From Gemmatimonadaceae bacterium (GTDB taxonomy: Bacteria; Gemmatimonadota; Gemmatimonadetes; Gemmatimonadales; Gemmatimonadaceae), in NCBI GenBank assembly GCA_019689955.1, contig JADGGM010000030.1, positions 1 through 11,785 on the forward strand: DNA of 11,785 nt, in the 5' to 3' direction. Shown one piece after another: positions 29-11,785 of the stretch (the stretch's first letter is position 1; every line of letters begins with the position of its first letter). The translations under genes and the position numbers were made by a program. The notes under the pieces are model-generated. The model ran no database searches. It was not told where the DNA came from and was given only the letters and a program-made list of their open reading frames with translations.

Positions 29-1513
29 CTATTGCGTTGGCGACCGCCCCGCGCTGCTCGATGCGGCACGCGACCTCTGCTGGTACGCAACGACCGCATC
101 GATGACCTTCACCAGGTCGGACTCCGACCCCAGGGTCGCGTCGCCGACGTAGAGGAGCTTCCCCGTCGGCCCCACGAGCCGCAGCGGGATCTCCTGCCTC
201 GTCTCCCCAGGGGACACGCGATAGCTGCGGCCGTTCGCGCTCGAGTCGGGGAGATAGCGCCCGTCGGGCGGGGGGAGCTGCTGCATCGCGGTGACGCTGA
301 CGGTGAGCACCCCAGGGAGCGCGAGGTCATCGTGGAAGTAGTGCCACATCATCTCGGCTTCCTCCGACGGCGACGGGGGCGGCCGGAGACGGAAGTAGCC
401 GAAGGTCTGTGCGACGAGCACGATGTCGAGCGCGTCGCCGAAGCGGCGGTGCAATCGCTGGAGCAGCGCGTACCCGGGGTAGCACTGTACGCCGCACCGG
501 TGGTCGACGAAGGCGAGGAGCGTTACGCGCCCGGGGGCGGGGCGTGGCATCGTGTCGCGGCGGCCGAACCAGTAGTCGCCTGCGAGCGGCGGCGCGGGAC
601 GCCCGGCGCCGCGCAGGAGCACGTTGTCGACGAGGTCCTGCGCCGTGTCGCCGGTGAACCCTTGTCGGCTCGCCTCGGCGAGCCCCTTCCGCCGGGCGAA
701 CCGCACGTATGCATCGGGGCCGCTGTCGCGGAGCACGTCGAGCGGGCGCGGGGGGGTGAGCGCGACCACGCCCATGCTCAGCATCGCCCGGAGGAGGATC
801 GTCCGCGGATCGGCCGAGTCGGCGACCGAGGCGAGCGCCATGACGCGCGGTGCGAGGCGCATGAGGAACGTGGAATCGTCGAGCTGGTGCGCGAGCGCGC
901 CGAGCTCCATGTACGCTTGGATCCGCTCGGTGATGACCGACGGCCCGAGCGAGTCGAGCCGCATCGCGAGCGCCTCGGCCGCCGCGGCGCGGGCGGGGGT
1001 CGCTCGGAGCAGCATCCGGATCGCCGAGGAGAGGAGCGCACCCCGCTCGGCCGTGGAGCGAGCGCGCGCGAGCCGCTGGTCGACGAGGCGCGCGAAGTCG
1101 CTGTCGCGGTTCGCGATCAGGAGGAGCTGCAGGTACATCGCGTCGCTCCGCGGCGGCATCCGGTCCGGGGCGATGTGTGCGCTGCACCGCTGCGCGACGG
1201 CGATCACCTCGGCGGGCTCGGAGGCGCGGGCCTGGGCCAGGGCCGACAGGGTGTCCTCCCGCGTTCCCCAGAGCACATGGGCGCGCGTGCGCCGCACCGC
1301 GGCGAGGCACTCATCCGGGGAGCCGTACTGCTCGATCGGCGCCGGCTGGGTGGGCCAGTCGAAGCGCGTTTGCGCGCCGGCGGCCGGCGCGGCGGCGAGC
1401 ATCGCCACGCCGAGCAGCGCCGGCGCGAGGCCACGGCGCGAGCGGGACATCGCGTGGCGCGCGCGCCGCGGCGTGGCGCGGTCGGCGTCGTCGACCAGGA
1501 AGTCAGATGGCAT
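29..1513 (-). CDS. Exported thioredoxin-like protein with helical N-terminal half (cassette A)
   Basis: 494 residues, third gene of cassette A. Residues 22-47 read as a Sec signal peptide (SRSRR, then a hydrophobic Ala/Leu stretch, AGA before Gln48), so the protein should act outside the cytoplasm. Residues about 85-300 are Ala/Leu/Arg-rich and helical-looking, possibly TPR-like, with no recognised family. Residues about 303-475 resemble a thioredoxin/TlpA-type fold: GRVTLLAFVDHRC leads into the CxxxC motif Cys340-GVQ-Cys344, and a later strand reads RLVGPTGKLLYVGD. The cysteine spacing is CxxxC, as in SCO-type copper or redox proteins, rather than the classical CxxC. The ATG at 1513 overlaps the TldE stop by 11 nt. 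A second ATG at 1450 sits exactly before the signal peptide and is an alternative start; neither has a clear Shine-Dalgarno. The gene ends at a TAG at 29-31, and only 28 GC-rich bases remain. Envelope location is fairly secure; a disulfide, copper or scaffold role is inference. Confidence 0.75.
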   Translation of the reverse strand: MPSDFLVDDADRATPRRARHAMSRSRRGLAPALLGVAMLAAAPAAGAQTRFDWPTQPAPIEQYGSPDECLAAVRRTRAHVLWGTREDTLSALAQARASEPAEVIAVAQRCSAHIAPDRMPPRSDAMYLQLLLIANRDSDFARLVDQRLARARSTAERGALLSSAIRMLLRATPARAAAAEALAMRLDSLGPSVITERIQAYMELGALAHQLDDSTFLMRLAPRVMALASVADSADPRTILLRAMLSMGVVALTPPRPLDVLRDSGPDAYVRFARRKGLAEASRQGFTGDTAQDLVDNVLLRGAGRPAPPLAGDYWFGRRDTMPRPAPGRVTLLAFVDHRCGVQCYPGYALLQRLHRRFGDALDIVLVAQTFGYFRLRPPPSPSEEAEMMWHYFHDDLALPGVLTVSVTAMQQLPPPDGRYLPDSSANGRSYRVSPGETRQEIPLRLVGPTGKLLYVGDATLGSESDLVKVIDAVVAYQQRSRAASSSAGRSPTQ

Positions 1514-2888
1514 CGATCGTTGCGGTGAAGCTGAAGTCGTCGACCTTGAGCGGCGGGACGATCGCCGGCGCCTCCGGGCTGAAGACGGGGACCGGCGTCC
1601 CGATCTGCGCGATGCTGTTCAAGACGAAGAGCGGCGATTCCGTGAAGCGAAGGTTCTTCACCGCCTTGCTGATCTTCCCGTTCTCGATGAGCCAGAGCCC
1701 ATCGCGCGTGACCCCGGTGTAGAGGAGGCTCGTGGGGTCGAGCAGCGAGATGTTGGAGAAGCGCGTGACGAGGAGCCCGCGCTTCGTCGTCGCGATCATC
1801 TCCTCGACCGACGTCTCTCCCCCGCTCATCTGGTACGCGAACGTGTTGGGGGAGCCGAGGTTCTGGTGCAGCCACTGCAGCGCGTACCCGCGGTCCGTGC
1901 TGAGCGCCGTGAGGACGCCGTGGTCGATCCACGTCACGGGGCGCACCGGCTCGCCGCTCGGCGTGAACGGCACGACACCGAGGTCCGGGTGCATGGGATC
2001 GTGCGAGATCGTCACCCGCGAGTCCGCCACCTTGAGCCCGAGCTTGGAGAAGAACGGGCGGAGCGCGAAGGTGTGGTTCCCCTGCTCGGCGAAGCTGCGC
2101 CGGTCGAACTTCATGACCACGTACTGCACGAGGTCGTGCACCGCCTGGGGCTCGAGGATCACCGTGTAGCGCCCAGGCTCGATGGCCACCGGGTTGCGCG
2201 AGGCCAGGCACTTCTGGAGCGCGCGCTGCGCCAACGCCGCCCCGTCGATCCGCCCCCAGTCGTACGAGGACAGACCGGCCCACCCGGAGCCCGTCCCCTT
2301 GGGGTCGCGCACGGTCATCGAGCACTGCGCTTGAGTGTACGGGGCGTAGAGCGGCTCACCATTCGAGCGGATCAGGGCCCGCCCCGCGCCGCGGACTTCG
2401 ATGTAGCCGGCCGAGAGCATCCCCGCCTGCTCGGCCGGCTCAATGAGCGCGCGCGCCACCGCGGCGCATTCGTCCGCGCCGAGGGCGAAGGTACGGTCGC
2501 TCCAGATCGCCGGGCTGAGATAGTCGAAGTGGACCGCGGGGTCCTTGATGTCCTCGGGGGACGTCGGCCGGTAGCGGAGGGCGCGCTCGGCGGCGCGGAT
2601 CGCGCCCTGGATCGAGACATCGTCGATCTGGTTCGTGCGCGCCGAGGCGCTCGCGCCGCGGATGATGCGGCTGACGGTGAGCTCGTTGTTGCGCCGATCG
2701 CTGCCGAGGGTGACGCGGTTGCGCCCCCAGCGCATCTCCCCGCTCCACCAGGTGTCGATGTAGAGCGCCGTGTCGCCCCCGCCGACGGCGAAGCGCATCG
2801 CGCGCTGGGCGAGCGCCTCGCATTGCGCCTGGGAGAGAAAGCGGCGGGGCTCCTCGAGCAGCCGCCGCGGTTCGGATCGGCCGCGCAT
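1503..2888 (-). CDS. TldE/PmbA-family protein (cassette A)
   Basis: 461 residues. The C-terminal half matches the PmbA/TldD fold: GRYTVILEPQAVHDLVQYVV at 239-258, KVADSRVTISHDP at 286-298, GEPVRPVTWIDHGVL at 312-326, and a C-terminal stretch at about 355-425 including RFSN, DGLWLIENGKISKAVKN and LRFTESPLFVL. As in E. coli TldE there is no HExxxH. TldE normally pairs with TldD to form a heterodimeric protease with an enclosed chamber. The start is fixed by the TGATG overlap with the upstream TldD gene (stop 2890-2888, start 2888-2886); the same junction exists in cassette B. The frame stays open further upstream, but only antisense-free shadow coding of TldD would be added. No Sec or Tat signal is visible: the first 30 residues are charged and polar. 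It is either cytoplasmic or exported in complex with the Tat-bearing TldD. My hand count against the cassette B copy gives about 56 differences in 461 aligned residues, with no gaps. Confidence 0.87.
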   Translation of the reverse strand: MRGRSEPRRLLEEPRRFLSQAQCEALAQRAMRFAVGGGDTALYIDTWWSGEMRWGRNRVTLGSDRRNNELTVSRIIRGASASARTNQIDDVSIQGAIRAAERALRYRPTSPEDIKDPAVHFDYLSPAIWSDRTFALGADECAAVARALIEPAEQAGMLSAGYIEVRGAGRALIRSNGEPLYAPYTQAQCSMTVRDPKGTGSGWAGLSSYDWGRIDGAALAQRALQKCLASRNPVAIEPGRYTVILEPQAVHDLVQYVVMKFDRRSFAEQGNHTFALRPFFSKLGLKVADSRVTISHDPMHPDLGVVPFTPSGEPVRPVTWIDHGVLTALSTDRGYALQWLHQNLGSPNTFAYQMSGGETSVEEMIATTKRGLLVTRFSNISLLDPTSLLYTGVTRDGLWLIENGKISKAVKNLRFTESPLFVLNSIAQIGTPVPVFSPEAPAIVPPLKVDDFSFTATIDAI

Positions 2889-4510
2889 CACGCCTTCCTC
2901 GTCCGGTCGATGATCGTGACGTCCTTGAAGCGCGCCGGCACCGCGCCGATGCTGAACGCGCTTTGCCGCGCCGGCTCCCCCTTCACCGCCGCCGCGCCGT
3001 GCCACTCGAGGCTCCTGGCGCCGCCGAGTGCGGTGAGCGACTTCCACAGGTTCGGCGCGCGGAAGAGGATCCCCGCGCCGTCGATGCGCGCGACCTTCTT
3101 GCCGCGCTTGATCTCGTAGAAGTTGCCGCTGTGCGACTCGCCGTTCACGTGTTGGAAGTCGGTGGTGGCGGTGAGGTTGGTGACGAGGATGCCGGCGTCG
3201 AGGTCCTTCACGAGGTCGTCGAGCCGCACGTCGGCGCGGCCGGGTGTGATCGCGACGTTGGGCGGGTGCTCCATCGTCGCGTGGAGCGCGCTCGGCGCGT
3301 TGGCGCAGCCGTGCGAGCGCACGGGCTTGCCGTGCTTCGTGTAATACTCCGCGAGCCACCCGGCGCCCTCGCGCGTGGTCTGGAAATCGGCGAGGATGCC
3401 ATCCTTCACCAGCGTGAAGGGCTCGGGTTCCACCCCTTCGTCATCCCACTTGACCGTGGCGAGCGCGCCTGGGGTGGAGCGATCGCCCGTGACGGTGAGG
3501 AGCGGGGCGCCGACGGGTTCCGTGCCGAGCATGGCGAGGGGGCGGTTCAGCCAACTCGTGCCGCCGGCGTTCGCCTCGTAGCCGAGCGCGCGATCGAGCT
3601 CCGTGGCCGCGACGATGGTTCCGGCGAGGAGGTTGGCGACACCGGCGGCATCGAGCACGACGTCGTAGCGCCCCACCTCCACGGGCTTGATGGGGAGACG
3701 CCAGTCTTTCTCGAGGCGCGCCATGAGGATCGGGATCTCCTCGCGCAGCGGGGCCTCGCGGATGTACTCCCATCCGCGCGCGGCGCTCCCGAGGAGCGAG
3801 GAGGGGAGCATGATCGGCTGGCGCGGGTCGGTCCGGAGCTGCTGGTTGTCGTAGCTGATGCCGAAGCCGGCGTCGGTGCGGTAGAGCGTCTGCGTGACGA
3901 ACGTCCCTTCGGTGGACGCAAACGCTTTCTCCTGGCGCTGGAACCCCGCGCCGACGTTGGCGCTCACGCCGGGGTAGGCGGACTCGGTGTAGACCTGGAG
4001 CCCGTGGAGGTAATCGAGCACCTCGTCGATGGAGACGGTGAAGGGGTCGATCTTCACGGGCGTCACCCAATGTCCATCGGCGACCACCCGGATCTTCCCG
4101 AGCTCGACGACGCGCGCCTTGCCGAGGGCGTTGGCTTTCGCGTGGGCCACGGCCTCGCGCCCGAGGCGCGCCATCTCGTCCGGAGTCCAATATGGCCCGC
4201 TGGCGAACCCCCAGTAGCCGTTCACCAGCGCGCGGACGCCGACGGCCATCTCTTCCGCGTCCTGAATGATGGCGTTGAATGGCTCGAAGGAGCGGGACCA
4301 GGTGTGCGTGAGGCGGACGTCCGCGTACGTGGCGCCGGCGCTTCGGGCCGCGTCGAGCGCCAGGAGGGCGAGGGGCTTGACGTCGGGGTCGGTGATGGGG
4401 GGCGCGAGCGACGGCTCGCGCAGGGAGCGCGCGGCGAGCCATCGCGGGGTCGCGGCGAGGAGCGCGGCGCCGGTACCGGCCTTGAGGAAGTCGCGGCGGG
4501 AAACGGTCAT
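2888..4510 (-). CDS. Tat-exported TldD-family protein lacking HExxxH (cassette A)
   Basis: 540 residues. A classic twin-arginine signal opens the protein: SRRDFLK at 4-10, a hydrophobic stretch to about 21, and a likely cleavage near LAA at 25-27. The N-terminal TldD domain (about 42-130) shows ALDAARSAGATYADVRL and GVRALVNGYWGFASGPYW; EGTFVTQTLYR lies at 201-211. The C-terminal domain has GRYDVVLDAAGVANLL at 280-295, KWDDEGVEP at 354-362 and LVKDGIL at 367-373, matching the DDEG...ENGIL pattern of TldD. Where TldD carries HExxxH (GVLLHEAVGH in E. coli), residues 296-301 read AGTIVA, and there is no HE dipeptide anywhere. The C-terminal zinc-binding cysteine is also missing. The ATG at 4510 has GGAG ending 11 nt upstream, the same spacing as in cassette B. 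Family assignment is strong; canonical zinc protease activity is doubtful. It overlaps the TldE start by one base. Confidence 0.88.
   Translation of the reverse strand: MTVSRRDFLKAGTGAALLAATPRWLAARSLREPSLAPPITDPDVKPLALLALDAARSAGATYADVRLTHTWSRSFEPFNAIIQDAEEMAVGVRALVNGYWGFASGPYWTPDEMARLGREAVAHAKANALGKARVVELGKIRVVADGHWVTPVKIDPFTVSIDEVLDYLHGLQVYTESAYPGVSANVGAGFQRQEKAFASTEGTFVTQTLYRTDAGFGISYDNQQLRTDPRQPIMLPSSLLGSAARGWEYIREAPLREEIPILMARLEKDWRLPIKPVEVGRYDVVLDAAGVANLLAGTIVAATELDRALGYEANAGGTSWLNRPLAMLGTEPVGAPLLTVTGDRSTPGALATVKWDDEGVEPEPFTLVKDGILADFQTTREGAGWLAEYYTKHGKPVRSHGCANAPSALHATMEHPPNVAITPGRADVRLDDLVKDLDAGILVTNLTATTDFQHVNGESHSGNFYEIKRGKKVARIDGAGILFRAPNLWKSLTALGGARSLEWHGAAAVKGEPARQSAFSIGAVPARFKDVTIIDRTRKA
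3257..3592. repeat. 336-bp block identical between the two tldD copies (copy A side)
   Basis: Read base by base, this block is identical to 7909-8244, bounded by a C/G mismatch at 3256/7908 and an A/G mismatch at 3593/8245. It encodes TldD residues about 307-418. The flanks show many differences, so the block stands out sharply. Confidence 0.85.
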
Positions 4511-4692: not shown

Positions 4693-6165
4693 TCAGCGCC
4701 CGTCGCCCACCGATGACGCGCTCGTCTTCTTCTGATACTCGATCGCCGCCGCGATGAGGTTGGTGAGATCGGTCTCGCCCTGCAGGTACACGTCCCCCGC
4801 GTAGAGGATGGTTCCCGTGGGGCCGACGAGCCGCAGCGCGGTCTCCTGCTCCGTGGAGCTCGGGGACACGTGATAGCTCCGGCCGTTCGCCGTTTCCCCG
4901 TACACGTGTCGCCGGTCGGGCGCGGGGAGCTGGCTGGTCGGCGTGACGCTCACGGTGAGCATGCCGGGAAGCTTCAGCTCGTCGAGAAAATAGTGCCGGA
5001 TCAGCTCCGCCTCCTCCGACGGCGAGGGGGGCGGCCGGAGGCGGAAGTAGCCGAAGGTCTGGGCGACGAGGACGATGTCGAGCGCGTCGCCGAAGCGGCG
5101 GTGGAGGCGTTCGAGCATCGCGTACCCCGGGTAGCACTTCACTCGGCAGCGATGATCCACGAAGGCGAGGAGCGTCACGCGCCCCCGCGCCGGGAGCGGC
5201 CGGGTGGTGTCGCTGCGCCCGTACCAGTAGTCGCCCACGAGCGGCGGCGCGGGGCGGCCGGCGCCGCGGAGGAGATCGTTCTCGACCATGTTCTCCGCCG
5301 TGTCACGGCTCACCCCGCGCTTGGTGGCTTCCGCCACGTACTTTCGCCGGATGAGCTGCACGTAGGCATCGGGGCCGCTGTCGCGCAGCACGTCGAGCGG
5401 ACGGGGCGGGGTGAGCATCACGACGCCGGTGCTGAGCGCCGCTTTCATGATCAGGTTCGGGTTCGCCGAGTCGACGCGCGACCCGAGAGCGAGCGCGCGC
5501 GGCGCGGCGCGCGCGAGGAGGGCGGAGTCCCCCAGGAGGCGGGCGAGGTACGCGAGGCGGAACCACGCGTACAGACGCGACTCCGCGGCCTCGGGCCCCA
5601 GCGCGTCGAGGCGCTGCGCGAGCTGCTCGGCGGCGGCGATGCGGACGGGTCTGGCCCTGAGCAGCACGTCGAACGCCGAGAAGAGCGCGGTGCTGCGCGC
5701 GTCGACCGAGCGCGCTTCCGCGACCTGCTTGTCCACGACGGCGGCGAACGTGCTGTCCCGGCCCGCGATGAGGAGGAGTTGGAGGTAGAGCGGCCGGCTC
5801 GACGCGGGCATGCGATCGGCGTCGAGATGCGCGCTGCACCGGCGTGCGATCTCGATCACCTCCGGCGGCTCCGAGGCGCGGTCCTGCGCGACCGCGGACA
5901 GCGTGTCCGGCCGCGCCCCCCAGACCGCGCGCGCCTCCGATCGCTCCACCGCAGCGAGGCATTCCTCGGGGCGGCCGTACTGCTCGACCGGCGCCGGCCT
6001 GGCGGGCCAAGCGAAGCGCGTCTGCGCGCCGGCGGCGGGGGCGATGACGAGCACCGCGGCGCCGAGCACCGCGCGGGAAAGACGGCGGCTCCGGCGGGTG
6101 CCTCGAGGCACGGGGCGCGGCCGCGCCGTGCGGCCGCATCCATCCACACGCGGGTCAGATGGCAT
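4693..6165 (-). CDS. Exported thioredoxin-like protein with helical N-terminal half (cassette B)
   Basis: 490 residues, paralogue of the protein encoded at 29-1513. A Sec-like signal runs from the RRSRR cluster at 24-28 through a hydrophobic stretch to AGA before Gln48. The ATG at 6165 overlaps the TldE stop by 11 nt, as in cassette A; the internal ATG of cassette A is absent here, although a GTG at 6111 could also start the protein. The cysteines are Cys340-RVK-Cys344, again CxxxC, followed by YPGYAMLERLHRRFGDALDI and an almost unchanged stretch to PSPSEEAE near 386. Over roughly residues 328-386 the two copies differ at only about four positions, whereas over 101-200 they share only about 57 of 100 residues by hand count. 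The thioredoxin-like core is therefore constrained and the helical half is not. The partner or substrate is unknown; redox partner, copper carrier and structural subunit all remain possible. Confidence 0.75.
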   Translation of the reverse strand: MPSDPRVDGCGRTARPRPVPRGTRRSRRLSRAVLGAAVLVIAPAAGAQTRFAWPARPAPVEQYGRPEECLAAVERSEARAVWGARPDTLSAVAQDRASEPPEVIEIARRCSAHLDADRMPASSRPLYLQLLLIAGRDSTFAAVVDKQVAEARSVDARSTALFSAFDVLLRARPVRIAAAEQLAQRLDALGPEAAESRLYAWFRLAYLARLLGDSALLARAAPRALALGSRVDSANPNLIMKAALSTGVVMLTPPRPLDVLRDSGPDAYVQLIRRKYVAEATKRGVSRDTAENMVENDLLRGAGRPAPPLVGDYWYGRSDTTRPLPARGRVTLLAFVDHRCRVKCYPGYAMLERLHRRFGDALDIVLVAQTFGYFRLRPPPSPSEEAELIRHYFLDELKLPGMLTVSVTPTSQLPAPDRRHVYGETANGRSYHVSPSSTEQETALRLVGPTGTILYAGDVYLQGETDLTNLIAAAIEYQKKTSASSVGDGR

Positions 6166-7540
6166 CGATCAATGCGGTAAAGCTGAAGTCCTTGACCTTG
6201 AGCGGCGGGACGATCGCCGGTACGCCCGGGCTGAACACGCGCTCGGGGCGGCCGAGCTGTTCGATGCTGTTGAGGACGAAGAGCGGCGACTCGGTGAAGC
6301 GGAGGTTCTTGACGGCCTTCGAGATCTTCCCGTTCTCGATGAGCCACAACCCATCGCGCGTGACCCCGGTGAGGAGGAGGCTCACAGGATCGACGTACGA
6401 GACGTTGGAGAAGCGGGTGACGAGGAGCCCGCGCTTCGTCGTCGCGATCATCTCCTCGACCGACGTTTCTCCCCCGCTCATCTGATAGGAGAGCGTGTTG
6501 GGATAGCCGAGGTTGTCGTAGAGCTTCGTGAGGGCGTACTCGCGGTTGTACGCGAGCGTGGTCAGAACGCCGTGGTCGATCCACGTCACGGGGCGCACCG
6601 GCTCGCCGCTCGGCGTGAACGGCACCACGCCCAGGTCCGGGTGCATCGGATCGTGCGAGATCGTCACCCGCGAGTCCGCCACCTTGAGCCCGAGCTTGGA
6701 GAAATCGCGGCGCAGGGCGAACGGGTGCACGCCGCCTTCGGCGATGTCGCGAAGATCGAAGTTGCGGACCACGTACTGCACGAGGTCGTGCACCGCCTGG
6801 GGCTCGAGGATCACCGTGTAGCGCCCGGGCTCGATACCCACGGGGTTGCGCGAGGCCAGGCACTTCTGGAGCGCGCGCTGCGCCAACGCCGCCCCGTCGA
6901 TCCGCCCCCAGTCATAGCTACTGAGCCCTGCCCACCCGGAGCCGGTGCCCTGTGGGTCGCGCACGGTCATCGAGCACTGCGCTTGAGTGTACGGGGCGTA
7001 GAGCGGCTCACCATTCGAGCGGATCAGGGCTCGCCCCGCGCCGCGGACCTCGATGTAGCCGGCCGAGAGCATCCCCGCCTGCTCGGCCGGCTCGATGAGC
7101 GCGCGCGCCGCCGCAGCGCGCTCGCTCGCACCGAGCGCGAAGGTACGGTCGCTCCAGATCGCGGGGCTGAGATAATCGAAGTGGACCGCGGGATCTTTGA
7201 TGTCTTCGGGCGAGGTTGGGTGATAGGCGAGCGCGCGCTCGGCGGCCTGGATCGCGCTCTGGATCGAGACGTCGTCGATCTGATTCGTGCGTACCGAAGC
7301 GGCGGCCTCGTGGATCGAACGGCGTATCGTGAGCTGGTTGTTGCGGCGGTCGCTGCCGAGGGTGACGCGGTTGCGCCCCCAGCGCATCTCCCCGCTCCAC
7401 CAGGTGTCGATGTAGAGCGCCGTGTCGCCCCCGCCGGTGGCGAAGCGCATCGCGCGCTGAGCGAGTGCTTCGCACTGGTCCTGGGAGAGAAAGCGGCGGG
7501 GCTCCTCGAGCAGCCGCCGCGGTTCGGATCGGCGGCGCAT
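6155..7540 (-). CDS. TldE/PmbA-family protein (cassette B)
   Basis: 461 residues, exactly the length of the cassette A copy and alignable without gaps. It carries the same PmbA/TldD C-terminal hallmarks: GRYTVILEPQAVHDLVQYVV at 239-258, DSRVTISHDPMHPDLG at 289-304, VTWIDHGVL at 318-326 and GETSVEEMIATTKRGLL at 357-373. There is no HExxxH and no signal peptide. The start at 7540 is fixed by the TGATG overlap with the TldD stop. Differences from cassette A cluster at residues about 69-106, 259-280 and 328-351, and in the last 35 residues, while 142-258 is nearly unchanged. If the family precedent holds, it forms the non-catalytic half of a TldD/E heterodimer; each cassette supplies its own pair, so matched or mixed dimers are both conceivable. 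Export, if it occurs, would depend on the TldD partner. Confidence 0.87.
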   Translation of the reverse strand: MRRRSEPRRLLEEPRRFLSQDQCEALAQRAMRFATGGGDTALYIDTWWSGEMRWGRNRVTLGSDRRNNQLTIRRSIHEAAASVRTNQIDDVSIQSAIQAAERALAYHPTSPEDIKDPAVHFDYLSPAIWSDRTFALGASERAAAARALIEPAEQAGMLSAGYIEVRGAGRALIRSNGEPLYAPYTQAQCSMTVRDPQGTGSGWAGLSSYDWGRIDGAALAQRALQKCLASRNPVGIEPGRYTVILEPQAVHDLVQYVVRNFDLRDIAEGGVHPFALRRDFSKLGLKVADSRVTISHDPMHPDLGVVPFTPSGEPVRPVTWIDHGVLTTLAYNREYALTKLYDNLGYPNTLSYQMSGGETSVEEMIATTKRGLLVTRFSNVSYVDPVSLLLTGVTRDGLWLIENGKISKAVKNLRFTESPLFVLNSIEQLGRPERVFSPGVPAIVPPLKVKDFSFTALIDAI

Positions 7541-9162
7541 CAGGCTTTCCTCGTCCGGTCGATGATCGTGACGTCCTTGAAGCGCGCCGGCACCGCGCCG
7601 ACACTGAACGCGCCGTTGCGCATCGGCTCCCCCTTGGGCATGGTGGCCGACCGCCACTCGAGGCTCTTGGCGCCGCCAAGCGCGGTGAGCGACTTCCAGA
7701 GCCCCGGCGCGCGGAAGAGCATCCCGGCGCCCGTGAGGTGCGCGACCTTCTTCCCGTTTCGGACCTCGTAGAACCGGCCGCTGCGCGATTCGCCGTTGAG
7801 GTGCTGGAAGTCGGTGTCGACGGTGAGCCCGGCGATGAAGATCCCCTTCTCGAGCCCCGCGATGAGGTCGTCGAGCCCCACGTCGCTCCGAGCCGGTGTG
7901 ATCGCGAGGTTGGGCGGGTGCTCCATCGTCGCGTGGAGCGCGCTCGGCGCGTTGGCGCAGCCGTGCGAGCGCACGGGCTTGCCGTGCTTCGTGTAATACT
8001 CCGCGAGCCACCCGGCGCCCTCGCGCGTGGTCTGGAAATCGGCGAGGATGCCATCCTTCACCAGCGTGAAGGGCTCGGGTTCCACCCCTTCGTCATCCCA
8101 CTTGACCGTGGCGAGCGCGCCTGGGGTGGAGCGATCGCCCGTGACGGTGAGGAGCGGGGCGCCGACGGGTTCCGTGCCGAGCATGGCGAGGGGGCGGTTC
8201 AGCCAACTCGTGCCGCCGGCGTTCGCCTCGTAGCCGAGCGCGCGGTCCAGCTCCGTGGCCGCGCCGATCGTGCTCGCCAGGAGCATCGAGACGCCGTGCG
8301 CGTCGAGCACGACATCGTAGCGTCCGGCCTCGATCGGCTTGAACGGGAGACGCCAGTCTTCCTCGAGGCGCGCCATGAGGATCGGGACCTCCTCGCGCAG
8401 CGGGGCCTCGCGGATGTACTCCCACCCCCGCCCCGCGCGCCCGAGGAGCGGGGACGCGATGGTCGTGGGGAGCCGATCGTCGGTGCGGTACTTCTCGTTG
8501 TCGTAGCTGATGCCGAAGCCGCCGCCGGTCCGGTAGAGCGTCTGCGTGACGAACGTCCCCTCGGTGGACGCGAACGCTTTCTCCTGGCGATAGAAGTCGC
8601 ACGCCACCTGTGCCGACACGCCGGGATACGTCGCGGCCGTGTAGATCATCAGACCGCGGAGATAATCGAACACCTCGTCGACCGGCACGGTGAACGGGTC
8701 GATCTCGACCGGCGTCTCCCAGTGGCCGTCGGCGACCACGGGAACCTTCCCGAGCTCGACGACCCGCGCCGCGCCGAGCGCGTTGGCTTTCGCGTGGGCC
8801 ACGGCCTCGCGGCCGAGGCGCGCCATCTCGTCCGGAGTCCAGTACGGCCCGCTCGCGAAGCCCCAGTAGCCGTTCACCAGTGCGCGCACGCCAGCGGCCA
8901 TCTCCTCGGCCTCTTCGATCGTGCGATGGTACGGCTCGAAGGAGCGGGTGTAAGTGTGCGTGAGACGGACGTCGGCGTACGCCGCGCCCGCGCTGCGCGC
9001 GGCGTCGAGCGCGCGGAGCGCGAGCGGTTTGACGTCGGGATCAGTGATTGGCGGAGCGAGCGGCGCCCCCGGCGCCGCGTGCACCGCGAGCCAGCGTGGG
9101 GTGGCGGCCAGCACCGCGGCGCCGGTACCGGCCTTGAGGAAGTCACGACGAGAAACGCCCAT
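7540..9162 (-). CDS. Tat-exported TldD-family protein lacking HExxxH (cassette B)
   Basis: 540 residues, the same length as the cassette A paralogue. The Tat signal SRRDFLK is at 4-10. The frame stays open to 9405, but the extra residues are Arg/His-rich, lie inside the coding sequence of the neighbouring lipoprotein and would bury the Tat signal. I therefore start at the ATG at 9162, which has AGGAG ending 11 nt upstream. The hallmarks ALDAARSAGAAYADVRLTHT, GYWGFASGPYWTPDEMARLG, EGTFVTQTLYR, WDDEGVEPEPF and LVKDGIL are present. The HExxxH position reads ASTIGA at 296-301, so the zinc motif is lost here too, with a different replacement sequence from cassette A. No C-terminal cysteine replaces the third ligand. 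Residues 307-418 are identical to cassette A, but the 110 residues around 201-310 hold about 24 substitutions. It follows the lipoprotein gene by 62 nt, suggesting co-transcription. Confidence 0.88.
   Translation of the reverse strand: MGVSRRDFLKAGTGAAVLAATPRWLAVHAAPGAPLAPPITDPDVKPLALRALDAARSAGAAYADVRLTHTYTRSFEPYHRTIEEAEEMAAGVRALVNGYWGFASGPYWTPDEMARLGREAVAHAKANALGAARVVELGKVPVVADGHWETPVEIDPFTVPVDEVFDYLRGLMIYTAATYPGVSAQVACDFYRQEKAFASTEGTFVTQTLYRTGGGFGISYDNEKYRTDDRLPTTIASPLLGRAGRGWEYIREAPLREEVPILMARLEEDWRLPFKPIEAGRYDVVLDAHGVSMLLASTIGAATELDRALGYEANAGGTSWLNRPLAMLGTEPVGAPLLTVTGDRSTPGALATVKWDDEGVEPEPFTLVKDGILADFQTTREGAGWLAEYYTKHGKPVRSHGCANAPSALHATMEHPPNLAITPARSDVGLDDLIAGLEKGIFIAGLTVDTDFQHLNGESRSGRFYEVRNGKKVAHLTGAGMLFRAPGLWKSLTALGGAKSLEWRSATMPKGEPMRNGAFSVGAVPARFKDVTIIDRTRKA
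7909..8244. repeat. 336-bp block identical between the two tldD copies (copy B side)
   Basis: Partner of the block at 3257-3592, at the common 4652-bp offset. It covers the DDEG region and the His/Cys-rich segment of TldD. The identity includes synonymous positions, which points to recent sequence exchange rather than selection on the protein alone. Confidence 0.85.
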
Positions 9163-9224: not shown

Positions 9225-10322
9225 TCAGCGCGTGCGGCGCGCCTCCGAGGGACGCGCCTCGACGACGATCTCCCCCGACGCGCCCGTGATCGTGTCGTGG
9301 TACGGGTATCGCCCGGGCGCCGTGAAGATGCGGTACTTCGGTAGCGCGAAGCCCACGCCCGTGGTGTCGCCGAAGGCGGGGATGTTCCCCGACCCGCACC
9401 CGCACATGAAGTCCTCGGCCACGTTCGTCGGGTCATCGAACGTCACGTCCGCGTTGCTCCCGGTGGCGTTGATCCAGATGATCCGACCACCGACGGCGAT
9501 CGTCACCTGGCTCGGCGAGAACACGACCGGCGGCCCGCCGGGGGTGGTCGACTTCTGGATGAGGACCACCTGTCCCGTCGGCATGGTGATCGCGAACGGG
9601 ACCGTGTCGGCCTTGGTGATGCCGTAGGCGGTCGTGGTGGCCGAGATCTTCACGATCCCCGGGCGCACGCCGAGGAGGAGGCCGAACTGATCGATCGTCG
9701 CGATGGTGGTGTCCGACGAGCGGTACTCCACCACGAGGTCCGGCACAGGCACGTCGTGGTCGTCCAACGCGACGTACGGGACCGGCTTGGGGCCGTAGAA
9801 ATCGGTGAAGCTGAGCGCGTTCGCGAACCACACCGCGGTGTCCGGCGGCACGGGGTGGATGGAGAACGAATCGAGCACCGGCGGGCTCGACACATCGGTC
9901 ACGTTGAAGGTCGCGGTGTCCGCGTGCGTGAGCGGCCCCAGGGTGAGCGACGCGATGACCTTGATCCCGAAGCCGGTCTTGAGCGCGTGCACGAGGCCCA
10001 GGGAATCGACCTGGAGGCGCTCGGGATCAGTGGAGCGGTAGCTGACCGCCGGCGCATCGGTGATGACCTCGCCCAGGGCGTTGTACGGTGTGGCGGCGAG
10101 TCGGATCGTGTCGTACGGCGCGACGGTGGAGATGGTGATTGCGCGCCGGTCGAGCGTGAGCGCCCAGTACAGCGCCGCGGGATCGGCGACCGGCGTGGGC
10201 GCCGCGGCGTCGGTGCCGCAGCCGGCCAGGGCGAGGAGCGCGATGGCGCGGCCGAGGCGTCGCGCACGCGACCGCGCGCGGCGCGCCGGATCGAACGGAA
10301 CGAAACCGGGACCAGTGAGCAT
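9225..10322 (-). CDS. Lipoprotein with Ig-like repeats and a degenerate cupredoxin-like domain
   Basis: 365 residues. An Arg-rich start and a hydrophobic stretch lead to the lipobox LAGC with Cys35, predicting a lipid-anchored envelope protein. Two Big_2-like beta domains follow at about 60-143 and 150-246; each has the pattern of a residue pair such as YRSTDPERLQVDSLGLVHAL or YRSSDTTIATIDQFGLLLGV, then a Gly-rich turn and an alternating strand. Residues about 266-356 resemble the plastocyanin-type domains of such proteins: SPSQVTIAVGGRIIWIN, VTFDDP and FTAPGRYPYHDTITG. The copper ligands appear lost: the usual HNVTFDD histidine is replaced (NADVTFDD), the YHCxxH cysteine and histidine read YHDTIT, and no Met follows. 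An unusual MCGCGSG at 306-312 sits in the insert. The start lies 26 nt after the SusD stop with no clear Shine-Dalgarno. Surface binding or structural support of the neighbouring system is inference. Confidence 0.75.
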   Translation of the reverse strand: MLTGPGFVPFDPARRARSRARRLGRAIALLALAGCGTDAAAPTPVADPAALYWALTLDRRAITISTVAPYDTIRLAATPYNALGEVITDAPAVSYRSTDPERLQVDSLGLVHALKTGFGIKVIASLTLGPLTHADTATFNVTDVSSPPVLDSFSIHPVPPDTAVWFANALSFTDFYGPKPVPYVALDDHDVPVPDLVVEYRSSDTTIATIDQFGLLLGVRPGIVKISATTTAYGITKADTVPFAITMPTGQVVLIQKSTTPGGPPVVFSPSQVTIAVGGRIIWINATGSNADVTFDDPTNVAEDFMCGCGSGNIPAFGDTTGVGFALPKYRIFTAPGRYPYHDTITGASGEIVVEARPSEARRTR

Positions 10323-10348: not shown

Positions 10349-11785
10349 TCAGGCGCCGCGGCTCAGGCAGCCGTGGAAGAGCGAGTTGTAGGTGCGCTCC
10401 CGCGACGGGACGGGCGCGTCCACCTCGCCGCCGTATCGCCCCGTCCCGCCCGGGTAGGCGCCGACGGGATACACGAGATTGGGGTTGCGCCTATACAGCC
10501 GGATGAGGCGGCGCATGTCGCCCTGCCGGTGCCCGGTGAGGAAAAGCCAGAACGCGCGTTCGCGGAAGACGAGGTCCACGCGCGCGTCCGGCGTGCCGGG
10601 GTCGTGCAGCGGCCCGAGCCCGGCCACGCCCCCCGTGCCGGCCACCCAGAGGGTGTCGTAGCGGTACGTCGTGTCGACCTGCGGCGTGCCCCCCACGTCG
10701 GTGGTGTCCACGTGATCCACGATCGTGTCCACGCGCGTGAAGGTGCCGTTGGTGCGCAGCGTGTTGAGCGTTGTGAGCCAATCGCCCGCGACGGCGCCGT
10801 TGAGCTGCGCCTCCGCCTCGATGAGCCGCGCCTCGACGCCGCTCGCCACCACGACCGGCGTGCCGCCCGTCAGCGCGTACTTGGCCGGGCGGTAGAGCGG
10901 GCGGCCGTTGGTGCTCGTGGCCACGATGGTCGCTGCCGTCCGAGGGTCGTGGCTGCTGATGTAGTCCAGCCCGTTCCCGCCTTCGCGATCCGCCATGATG
11001 TCGGGGCGGGCCGTGCCCGGGGCGTAGTACGCGAAGTTCCGGCCGTCGGGCTGGTTCACGTAGTACACCGCGTACTGGAAGTCATCCGGCACCTCGGCCA
11101 CCGCCTGCGCGGCCTCGGCGAACCGGCCGAGGGCGAGGAGCGCCCGCGCTTTCCCCACCCGCGCGAGGTTCAGGATGCGCGCGCTGTCGGCCACGAGCGC
11201 CAGCGCGCTGTCGAACATCGTGATCGCGTGTTGGTACACATCCGCGGTGGGCGAGCCCGGCCGCAGCGTGAAGTCGCCGTCGTAGTCGACCGTGCTCAGG
11301 GGGATGCCGGAGCAGAACAAGTCCGCGAGGAAGATCTCGGCGTAGCCTTGCAGCGCGTCGAGGTGCCCTGTGAGCGCCTGGAGGCTGTCCGGGGCGAAGC
11401 GCGTGAGCAGCCCGCGCGCCTGCGATCCCTGTCCGCGGATGAGCTGGAGCTCGGAGTACGCCGACTCGTACGGCTCGTTGACCTGGACATCGCCCTCCAT
11501 CTCGGGGAGGACGCGGCTGTCCGTGCGCATGCCGTACGAGAAGACGCCGACCGGATACCCGATCCCCTCCGCCTGGAGCTCGTCGGCGAGCAGGCCGGAG
11601 ACGACGACGAACGGGCTCGTCAGGTTCGCGGCGAAGGCGCGGCGGAACTGCGCCAGCGCGCCGCGGTACGCGCTCACGGCACCGCCGGGGGTCTGGACGG
11701 CCGTGGGATCGGGGATGTCGGGGGGGAGCTTGGCGTTGCCGACCACCTGGTCCGGGGAGCAGGCGGCCGCGCCCAGGGCGAGGAG
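10349..11785 (-). CDS. SusD/RagB-like outer-membrane lipoprotein, 5' end outside window
   Basis: 478 codons are visible plus a TGA stop; the true start lies beyond the right edge. The first codons read LLALGAAAC and then SPDQ: the end of a lipoprotein signal with the lipidated Cys at 11759-11761. A GTG at 11746 is in frame but would remove this signal, so I reject it as the start. SusD-type marks, numbered from the first visible codon, are the helical pair around 147-164 (GYAEIFLADLFCSGIPLS), a TPR-like helix near 205-230 (LARVGKARALLALGRFAEAA), RPAKY at 299-303 before EARLIEAEAQL near 318-328, and the C-terminal DLVFRERAFWLFLTGHRQGD near 404-423 followed by YPVG and YPGG. Family members are surface lipoproteins that cap a SusC-type TonB-dependent transporter and bind its glycan or peptide substrate. 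The SusC partner should lie just upstream, outside the window. Confidence 0.87.
   Translation of the reverse strand, partial: LLALGAAACSPDQVVGNAKLPPDIPDPTAVQTPGGAVSAYRGALAQFRRAFAANLTSPFVVVSGLLADELQAEGIGYPVGVFSYGMRTDSRVLPEMEGDVQVNEPYESAYSELQLIRGQGSQARGLLTRFAPDSLQALTGHLDALQGYAEIFLADLFCSGIPLSTVDYDGDFTLRPGSPTADVYQHAITMFDSALALVADSARILNLARVGKARALLALGRFAEAAQAVAEVPDDFQYAVYYVNQPDGRNFAYYAPGTARPDIMADREGGNGLDYISSHDPRTAATIVATSTNGRPLYRPAKYALTGGTPVVVASGVEARLIEAEAQLNGAVAGDWLTTLNTLRTNGTFTRVDTIVDHVDTTDVGGTPQVDTTYRYDTLWVAGTGGVAGLGPLHDPGTPDARVDLVFRERAFWLFLTGHRQGDMRRLIRLYRRNPNLVYPVGAYPGGTGRYGGEVDAPVPSRERTYNSLFHGCLSRGA

Follow-up and report, generated by a model that had tools for sequence, protein, structure and literature searches.

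Among the closest described counterparts of the system reported here is the TldD/TldE heterodimeric metalloprotease of Escherichia coli (PDB: 5NJ5). The accessible extracts of PMC5810440 describe TldD/TldE as widespread and call the function of the genes elusive; they also report stray peptides bound to inactive E. coli TldD in its crystals, and that Glu270, Asp272 and Lys456 of the E. coli protein tether a ‘clamp’. Here, we describe a TldD-type gene, A1, in an 11,785-nucleotide stretch of DNA from a Gemmatimonadaceae bacterium; this ‘window’ is the entire contig C505 of a draft genome, G000 (3.76 Mb, 751 contigs, 88.7% complete). A1 lacks the HExxxH motif of TldD, and the reading we favour, with moderate confidence, is that A1 and the adjoining gene product E1 form a TldD/TldE heterodimer shell that has lost its proteolytic centre—a shell copied and kept within TonB/SusCD-type uptake clusters under extracytoplasmic function (ECF) sigma/FecR control.

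Lost and retained residues of A1

The TldD fold spans the whole of the A1 chain. TldD/PmbA domains 1 and 3 score above their Pfam cut-offs (PF01523, 22.3 bits; PF19289, 70.6 bits), as does an N-terminal twin-arginine translocation (Tat) signal (TAT_signal, PF10518; 23.8 bits), with domain 2 below its own (PF19290, 14.8 bits; cut-off 20.9). The NCBIfam equivalog NF040952 gives 45.8 bits and its threshold of 635 is not reached, a weak test as the model is of archaeal TldD. The positions that matter for the argument are as follows:

2888..4510, minus strand: A1, TldD-type subunit without HExxxH and with a Tat signal; a 540-amino acid (aa) open reading frame (ORF) with an ATG start
4493..4498, minus strand: twin-arginine codons of the A1 Tat signal, residues 5–6 (PF10518)
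3608..3625, minus strand: AGTIVA codons, residues 296–301, opposite the TldD HExxxH in the profile alignment
3593..3601, minus strand: codons for E304, L305 and D306; E304 and D306 lie opposite E. coli Glu270 and Asp272 of the clamp tether (role from the extracts of PMC5810440) and are kept
2987..2989, minus strand: Ala508 codon, opposite the third metal ligand (E. coli Cys454; Asp/Asn in HExxxH relatives)
2981..2983, minus strand: K510 codon, opposite Lys456 of the clamp tether, kept
2948..2950, minus strand: Ile521 codon, opposite the C-terminal His of HExxxH relatives

Aligning the family profile with TldD places the E. coli LLHEAVGH opposite columns that read LL-detlgr; here A1 has AGTIVA, which falls on a helix (residues 288–302) of the predicted model. 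In agreement with the initial annotation, A1 is thus a TldD homologue without HExxxH, and no HE dipeptide occurs anywhere in the protein. Our motif counts draw on 234 distinct A-type sequences, of which 202 carry HExxxH, 25 do not (‘ligand-less’) and 7 stop short of the motif; ligand-less copies found later, in G325 (DGTIGH) and G063 (ALTIGT), lie outside these counts. As the sequences were grouped by their HExxxH columns, those columns themselves prove nothing further.

The third-ligand column holds Asp in 173, Asn in 23 and a gap in 6 of the 202 HExxxH sequences; Asp, Asn or Cys is seen there in none of the 21 ligand-less sequences with a letter at that position. The extracts of PMC5810440 mention that Asp may replace Cys454 in Gemmatimonas. 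Since the third ligand of this lineage is Asp or Asn, the missing Cys from which loss of this ligand was originally argued would not on its own show it; Ala508 does, so the claim stands with its criterion exchanged. The C-terminal His is likewise present in 196/196 HExxxH sequences with a letter there and in 0/22 of the ligand-less ones. This residue (within SHG, profile column 513) is seemingly absent, by eye, from E. coli TldD, and may belong to the active site in TldD proteins of the Tat type.

The clamp tether is mostly kept: the equivalent of Glu270 is found in 20/25 ligand-less sequences, that of Asp272 in 23/25 and that of Lys456 in 16/20, with A1 having all three. Taken together, A1/E1 almost certainly cannot cut by the TldD mechanism and, judged from sequence and predicted model, A1 is a pseudoenzyme; its catalytic residues gone, its fold and the selection upon it kept across a clade.

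Pairing, selection and spread

The remaining features of the window are:

1503..2888, minus strand: E1, TldE-type partner, 461 aa
29..1513, minus strand: T1, protein with a thioredoxin-fold C-terminal part
7540..9162, minus strand: A2, second TldD-type copy, motif ASTIGA, Tat signal
6155..7540, minus strand: E2, second TldE-type copy
4693..6165, minus strand: T2, second thioredoxin-fold protein
9225..10322, minus strand: B, Big_2 plus plastocyanin-like domain, probable lipoprotein (lipobox by eye)
10349..11785, minus strand: SusD-like protein, extending to the contig end, weak by sequence (Pfam SusD in 1/10 members of its family, E-value 0.0028; PDB: 3lew, E-value 0.018)

E1 has the TldE/PmbA fold, lacks the catalytic motif and adjoins a TldD-type gene, its start lying inside the A1 stop codon (TGATG); E2 and A2 are arranged in the same way. 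Both pairs are under purifying selection, with dN/dS (NG86 method) of 0.125/0.365 for A1/A2, a value that takes in a 336-nt identical tract, and 0.096/0.339 for E1/E2; both well under 1. That tract (window 3257–3592 and 7909–8244) is letter-identical in the two A genes, which overall differ at ~16% of bases, and reflects either a recent conversion event or an assembler that merged the two copies. In the plastocyanin-like domain of B (window 9225–10322), no Cys/His/Met copper set of the usual kind can be made out by eye; possibly a second metal-less relic of the operon.

All 24 ligand-less A sequences with letters at the expected position have a twin arginine there; in G000 it is seen in 11 of the 12 ligand-less copies, with the twelfth (C640) truncated where its contig ends. 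A crude scan of maximal N-terminal hydropathy, in which the ranges overlap at the margin, gives 0.15–1.35 for 14 E proteins of the ligand-less type versus 1.31–1.81 for 11 uncut A proteins. With a Tat signal on A and none apparent on E, we infer cytoplasmic folding of the pair followed by joint export through Tat.

Where two copies were initially counted, the genome holds at least 12 that are ligand-less. The C-terminal domain (PF19289) is matched 28 times in G000 and PF01523 15 times; among the A-type copies that extend over the motif, HExxxH is absent from 12, and one, on C266, has HESIGH. The motif is not seen in the copies on C265, C89 and C598, which are truncated or carry an internal deletion; that on C89 (L041:604-1671) is without its central part (profile positions ~244–366, motif included), through internal deletion or an assembly fault. 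The only HExxxH pair detected in G000 lies on C266 (L009), a contig of 3134 nt whose ends (2–115 and 3021–3134) agree at 111/114 bases, reflecting either an assembly path that is close to circular or similar pairs in tandem.

Contamination of this metagenome-assembled genome is an unlikely source of the many copies: the 21 contigs with family members have a GC content of 0.68–0.74, and in 16 of the 17 long enough the tetranucleotide correlation to ten sampled genome contigs is 0.86–0.95 (C80, 0.70), the ten correlating among themselves at 0.81–0.94. These ten remained of 20 sampled, once seven were masked and three proved too short for tetranucleotides; the masked contigs also distort the mean GC of the sample.

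The catalytic centre was probably lost once, in a Gemmatimonadota clade, to go by the sequence trees. In a tree of 127 A sequences (24 ligand-less, 103 HExxxH; short sequences and most HExxxH sequences of other phyla omitted), the ligand-less ones form one side of a branch with an SH-aLRT (Shimodaira–Hasegawa-like approximate likelihood ratio test) support of 100. The partners split likewise, with support of 99, in an E tree of 18 genes beside ligand-less A, 7 G000 E genes at contig ends and 93 beside HExxxH, the A-type ORF L170_8585 being excluded by a score cut. As both trees are quick and midpoint-rooted, with some long branches, a single origin is favoured rather than proved.

A ligand-less profile finds matches in 17/395 genomes of the phylum at E 1e-142, in a survey that scored three candidates per genome and can miss distant copies. 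Five of these genomes have ligand-less copies (G000, G325, G138, G063 and G012) and the other 12 match best through HExxxH; the five belong to two families, with G063 in another family than G000. A profile of the G012-type copies matches in G012 alone. Across 60 genomes, G000 among them, expansion is seen only in G000 (18 matches) and G012 (14), the others having 0–4. A scan of 84,980 species genomes with two peptide patterns finds ligand-less copies only in Gemmatimonadota, at five loci of three genomes among the best 80 of 93 matches; locus L058 belongs to G012, L056 to G138 and L057 to G325.

Uptake clusters and the proposed function of the pair

Neighbourhoods, as seen by codon-based gene calling and Pfam, show a recurring order in G000 and G325: ECF sigma, FecR, SusC, SusD-like, Big_2/plastocyanin-like, A, E, T and an M16 peptidase. 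Most G000 contigs carry part of this cluster only, the full order being found at locus L261 of G325; none of the cluster genes surround the HExxxH pairs of the same genome (L262). SusC of the sister loci gives clear matches to STN (PF07660), plug (PF07715) and TonB barrel (PF00593) domains, whilst SusD is weak by Pfam. G063 has the order M16, ECF, A, E, T, ECF, FecR, SusC, with no SusD-like or Big_2 gene found on that stretch, and in G012 a T-like protein precedes A. The 3.76-Mb draft of G000 has 52 TonB plug-domain matches, a rich set of outer-membrane receptors.

Among sequences preceded by ≥4 kb of DNA, 16/18 ligand-less genes have a same-strand SusC no more than 5 kb away, versus 3/158 with HExxxH (Fisher p 7e-18; two of the three are one locus), and 15/18 have a SusD-like gene, versus 0/158 (p 4e-19). 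The search models were made from ligand-less loci, biasing these counts towards them (most for SusD, T and B), and the sequences are related by descent, so the p values overstate. Overall, SusC or SusD is within 5 kb in 22/25 ligand-less cases, the exceptions being L038, where the contig ends at the gene, A1, where SusD lies further up the contig, and L164. M16 ORFs or pieces above 100 bits have an intact HxxEH in 9/11 instances, the two without being pieces on C109. Membership of the A/E pair in a SusCD-type uptake locus is very probable.

How might such a pair work? Ligand would enter through SusC/SusD. The TldD ancestry of the pair, together with M16 in the cluster of some genomes, suggests that the ligand is a peptide; and as inactive E. 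coli TldD binds peptides, holding them is the most economical job for the shell. The pair would then take peptide into its inner cleft, much as the inactive E. coli protein does, and hold it or pass it on uncut, with cutting left to another peptidase—M16 with its intact HxxEH where present, an unlinked enzyme elsewhere. The thioredoxin-fold protein may act on thiols, and paralogous clusters would serve different ligands. That the pair handles imported peptides without cutting them we regard as evenly balanced. A bolder version, which we offer tentatively as possible but doubtful, is that the dead shell forms a Tat-exported periplasmic receiving chamber for TonB/SusCD-imported peptides, with a dozen or more ligand-specific sets in a single genome and cutting by others such as the linked M16; this would be a new class of peptide-utilisation locus.

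Several observations weigh against peptide handling in an importer-linked cluster. SusCD systems import mostly glycans. The window itself lacks SusC, ECF and FecR, its contig ending in the SusD-like gene, so that this trio is read from sister loci; L164 has ECF/FecR only, with no SusC on its 20 kb, and the SusC of L169 belongs to a second, downstream ECF/FecR set. Neither M16 nor the Big_2 protein was found on the G012 loci examined, and the gene after T in C253 and L056 is not M16; an M16 partner is therefore not general. Five other genomes of the same genus have no ligand-less copy (four without any match, G002 with one HExxxH match), which implies that the clusters are patchily inherited or gained. 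Of the residues, the ligand-less sequence on C615 retains the first His and the Glu (HE), and that on C731 carries Ala and Ser in place of the two His and Glu in the third-ligand position. Finally, the equivalent of the E. coli brace residue Arg362 is kept in only 4/24 ligand-less sequences with a letter there versus 200/200 with HExxxH (by profile alignment only), such that the cleft may be remodelled.

An alternative, which we consider unlikely, is that of a regulatory pseudoenzyme: the exported pair would sense the imported ligand for FecR/ECF, or tune the cell's genuine TldD/TldE by competing for subunits or substrate. E. coli TldD and TldE each homodimerise besides forming the heterodimer (extracts of PMC5810440), and G000 retains one HExxxH pair, on C266; FecR and ECF sigma genes recur, and at L164 the pair keeps their company alone. 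Yet a SusC of these clusters carries an STN domain, and in FecR systems it is this domain of the receptor that is the usual donor of the signal.

Enzyme activity of the pair through a different active site, such as a carboxylate-bound metal or chemistry residing in subunit E, is improbable. Conserved His, Cys, Asp and Glu columns were screened for an alternative metal or thiol site in A or E: conservation of ≥90% is seen at ten Asp/Glu columns across 24 ligand-less A sequences and at eight across 16 E sequences, but His and Cys columns all stay below 90% in A and do not exceed 62% in E, and several of the conserved acids are also present in HExxxH relatives, as expected of structural residues. 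Without a His/Cys candidate, the screen speaks against a zinc site relocated elsewhere in the fold, the outcome singled out beforehand as fatal to the idea of a lost centre; and of the two options first put forward, pseudoprotease or different catalytic site, we favour the former, so that the initial interpretation is supported in part.

Recruitment of the shell to hold a non-peptide imported compound seems improbable to a like degree. The glycan bias of SusCD importers, the missing M16 of G012 and the mostly changed brace Arg would all fit; M16 peptidases nevertheless recur in the clusters of G000 and G325, and we know of no TldD/TldE shell that is other than a peptide binder. We rate slightly lower a shield that sequesters toxic or antimicrobial peptides in the periplasm rather than feeding the cell: the copies are numerous and diverse, and E. 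coli TldD is described in the extracts of PMC5810440 as binding peptides independently of sequence, but linkage to TonB/SusC import genes and, at several loci, to M16 would be needless for a pure shield. Decaying copies without present function, as the deleted copy on C89 might suggest, we reject as hardly credible given 12 near-complete open copies, window pairs with dN/dS well under 1 and the occurrence of ligand-less copies in two families (five genomes); on this point, and on the well-kept fold, the initial annotation was borne out.

Comparison with known systems

An old peptidase has seemingly been turned into a peptide-handling component of an import machine, as suggested by its copies in nutrient-uptake clusters. 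In a clade that has lost catalysis yet kept and multiplied the shell and linked it to importers, binding can be told apart from cutting, and the shell acquires a role open to experiment; if true, SusCD-type loci would gain a peptide-handling part. There is also a warning for annotation, in that such proteins pass Pfam ‘metallopeptidase’ domains without the metal-holding residues. TldD together with SusD, or TldD as a pseudoenzyme, was not found in the open-access literature; titles and abstract openings on TldD in Gemmatimonad, and the matches listed for PmbA with SusC, hold nothing on ligand-less pairs.

Compared with E. coli TldD/TldE (5NJ5), the TldD- and TldE-type folds and the clamp tether residues of A1 are shared, whereas A1 lacks HExxxH and the third ligand, has a Tat signal and is encoded in uptake clusters. 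The nearest HExxxH relatives, at 30–39% identity to A1, are Tat-signalled TldD/TldE pairs of Gemmatimonadota and Hymenobacter, most of which also have an adjoining TldE-type gene; unlike A1, they possess HExxxH, the Asp/Asn ligand and the C-terminal His, and SusC is missing from the surrounding 5 kb for 155 of the 158 HExxxH sequences preceded by ≥4 kb of DNA. The TldE/PmbA homodimers (PDB: 1VL4, 3QTD, 3TV9 and 1VPB) are, in the extracts of PMC5810440, hollow shells of the same fold with no catalytic site; A1 differs in fitting TldD better, in having the clamp tether and in having a separate gene for its TldE-type partner. Lastly, the sister loci, with their SusC (STN, plug and barrel), SusD-like protein, FecR and ECF sigma, resemble TonB-dependent importers of the SusCD/RagAB type under ECF/FecR control, as far as the partial accounts of these extend, with the difference that a ligand-less TldD/TldE pair has been added to the cluster.
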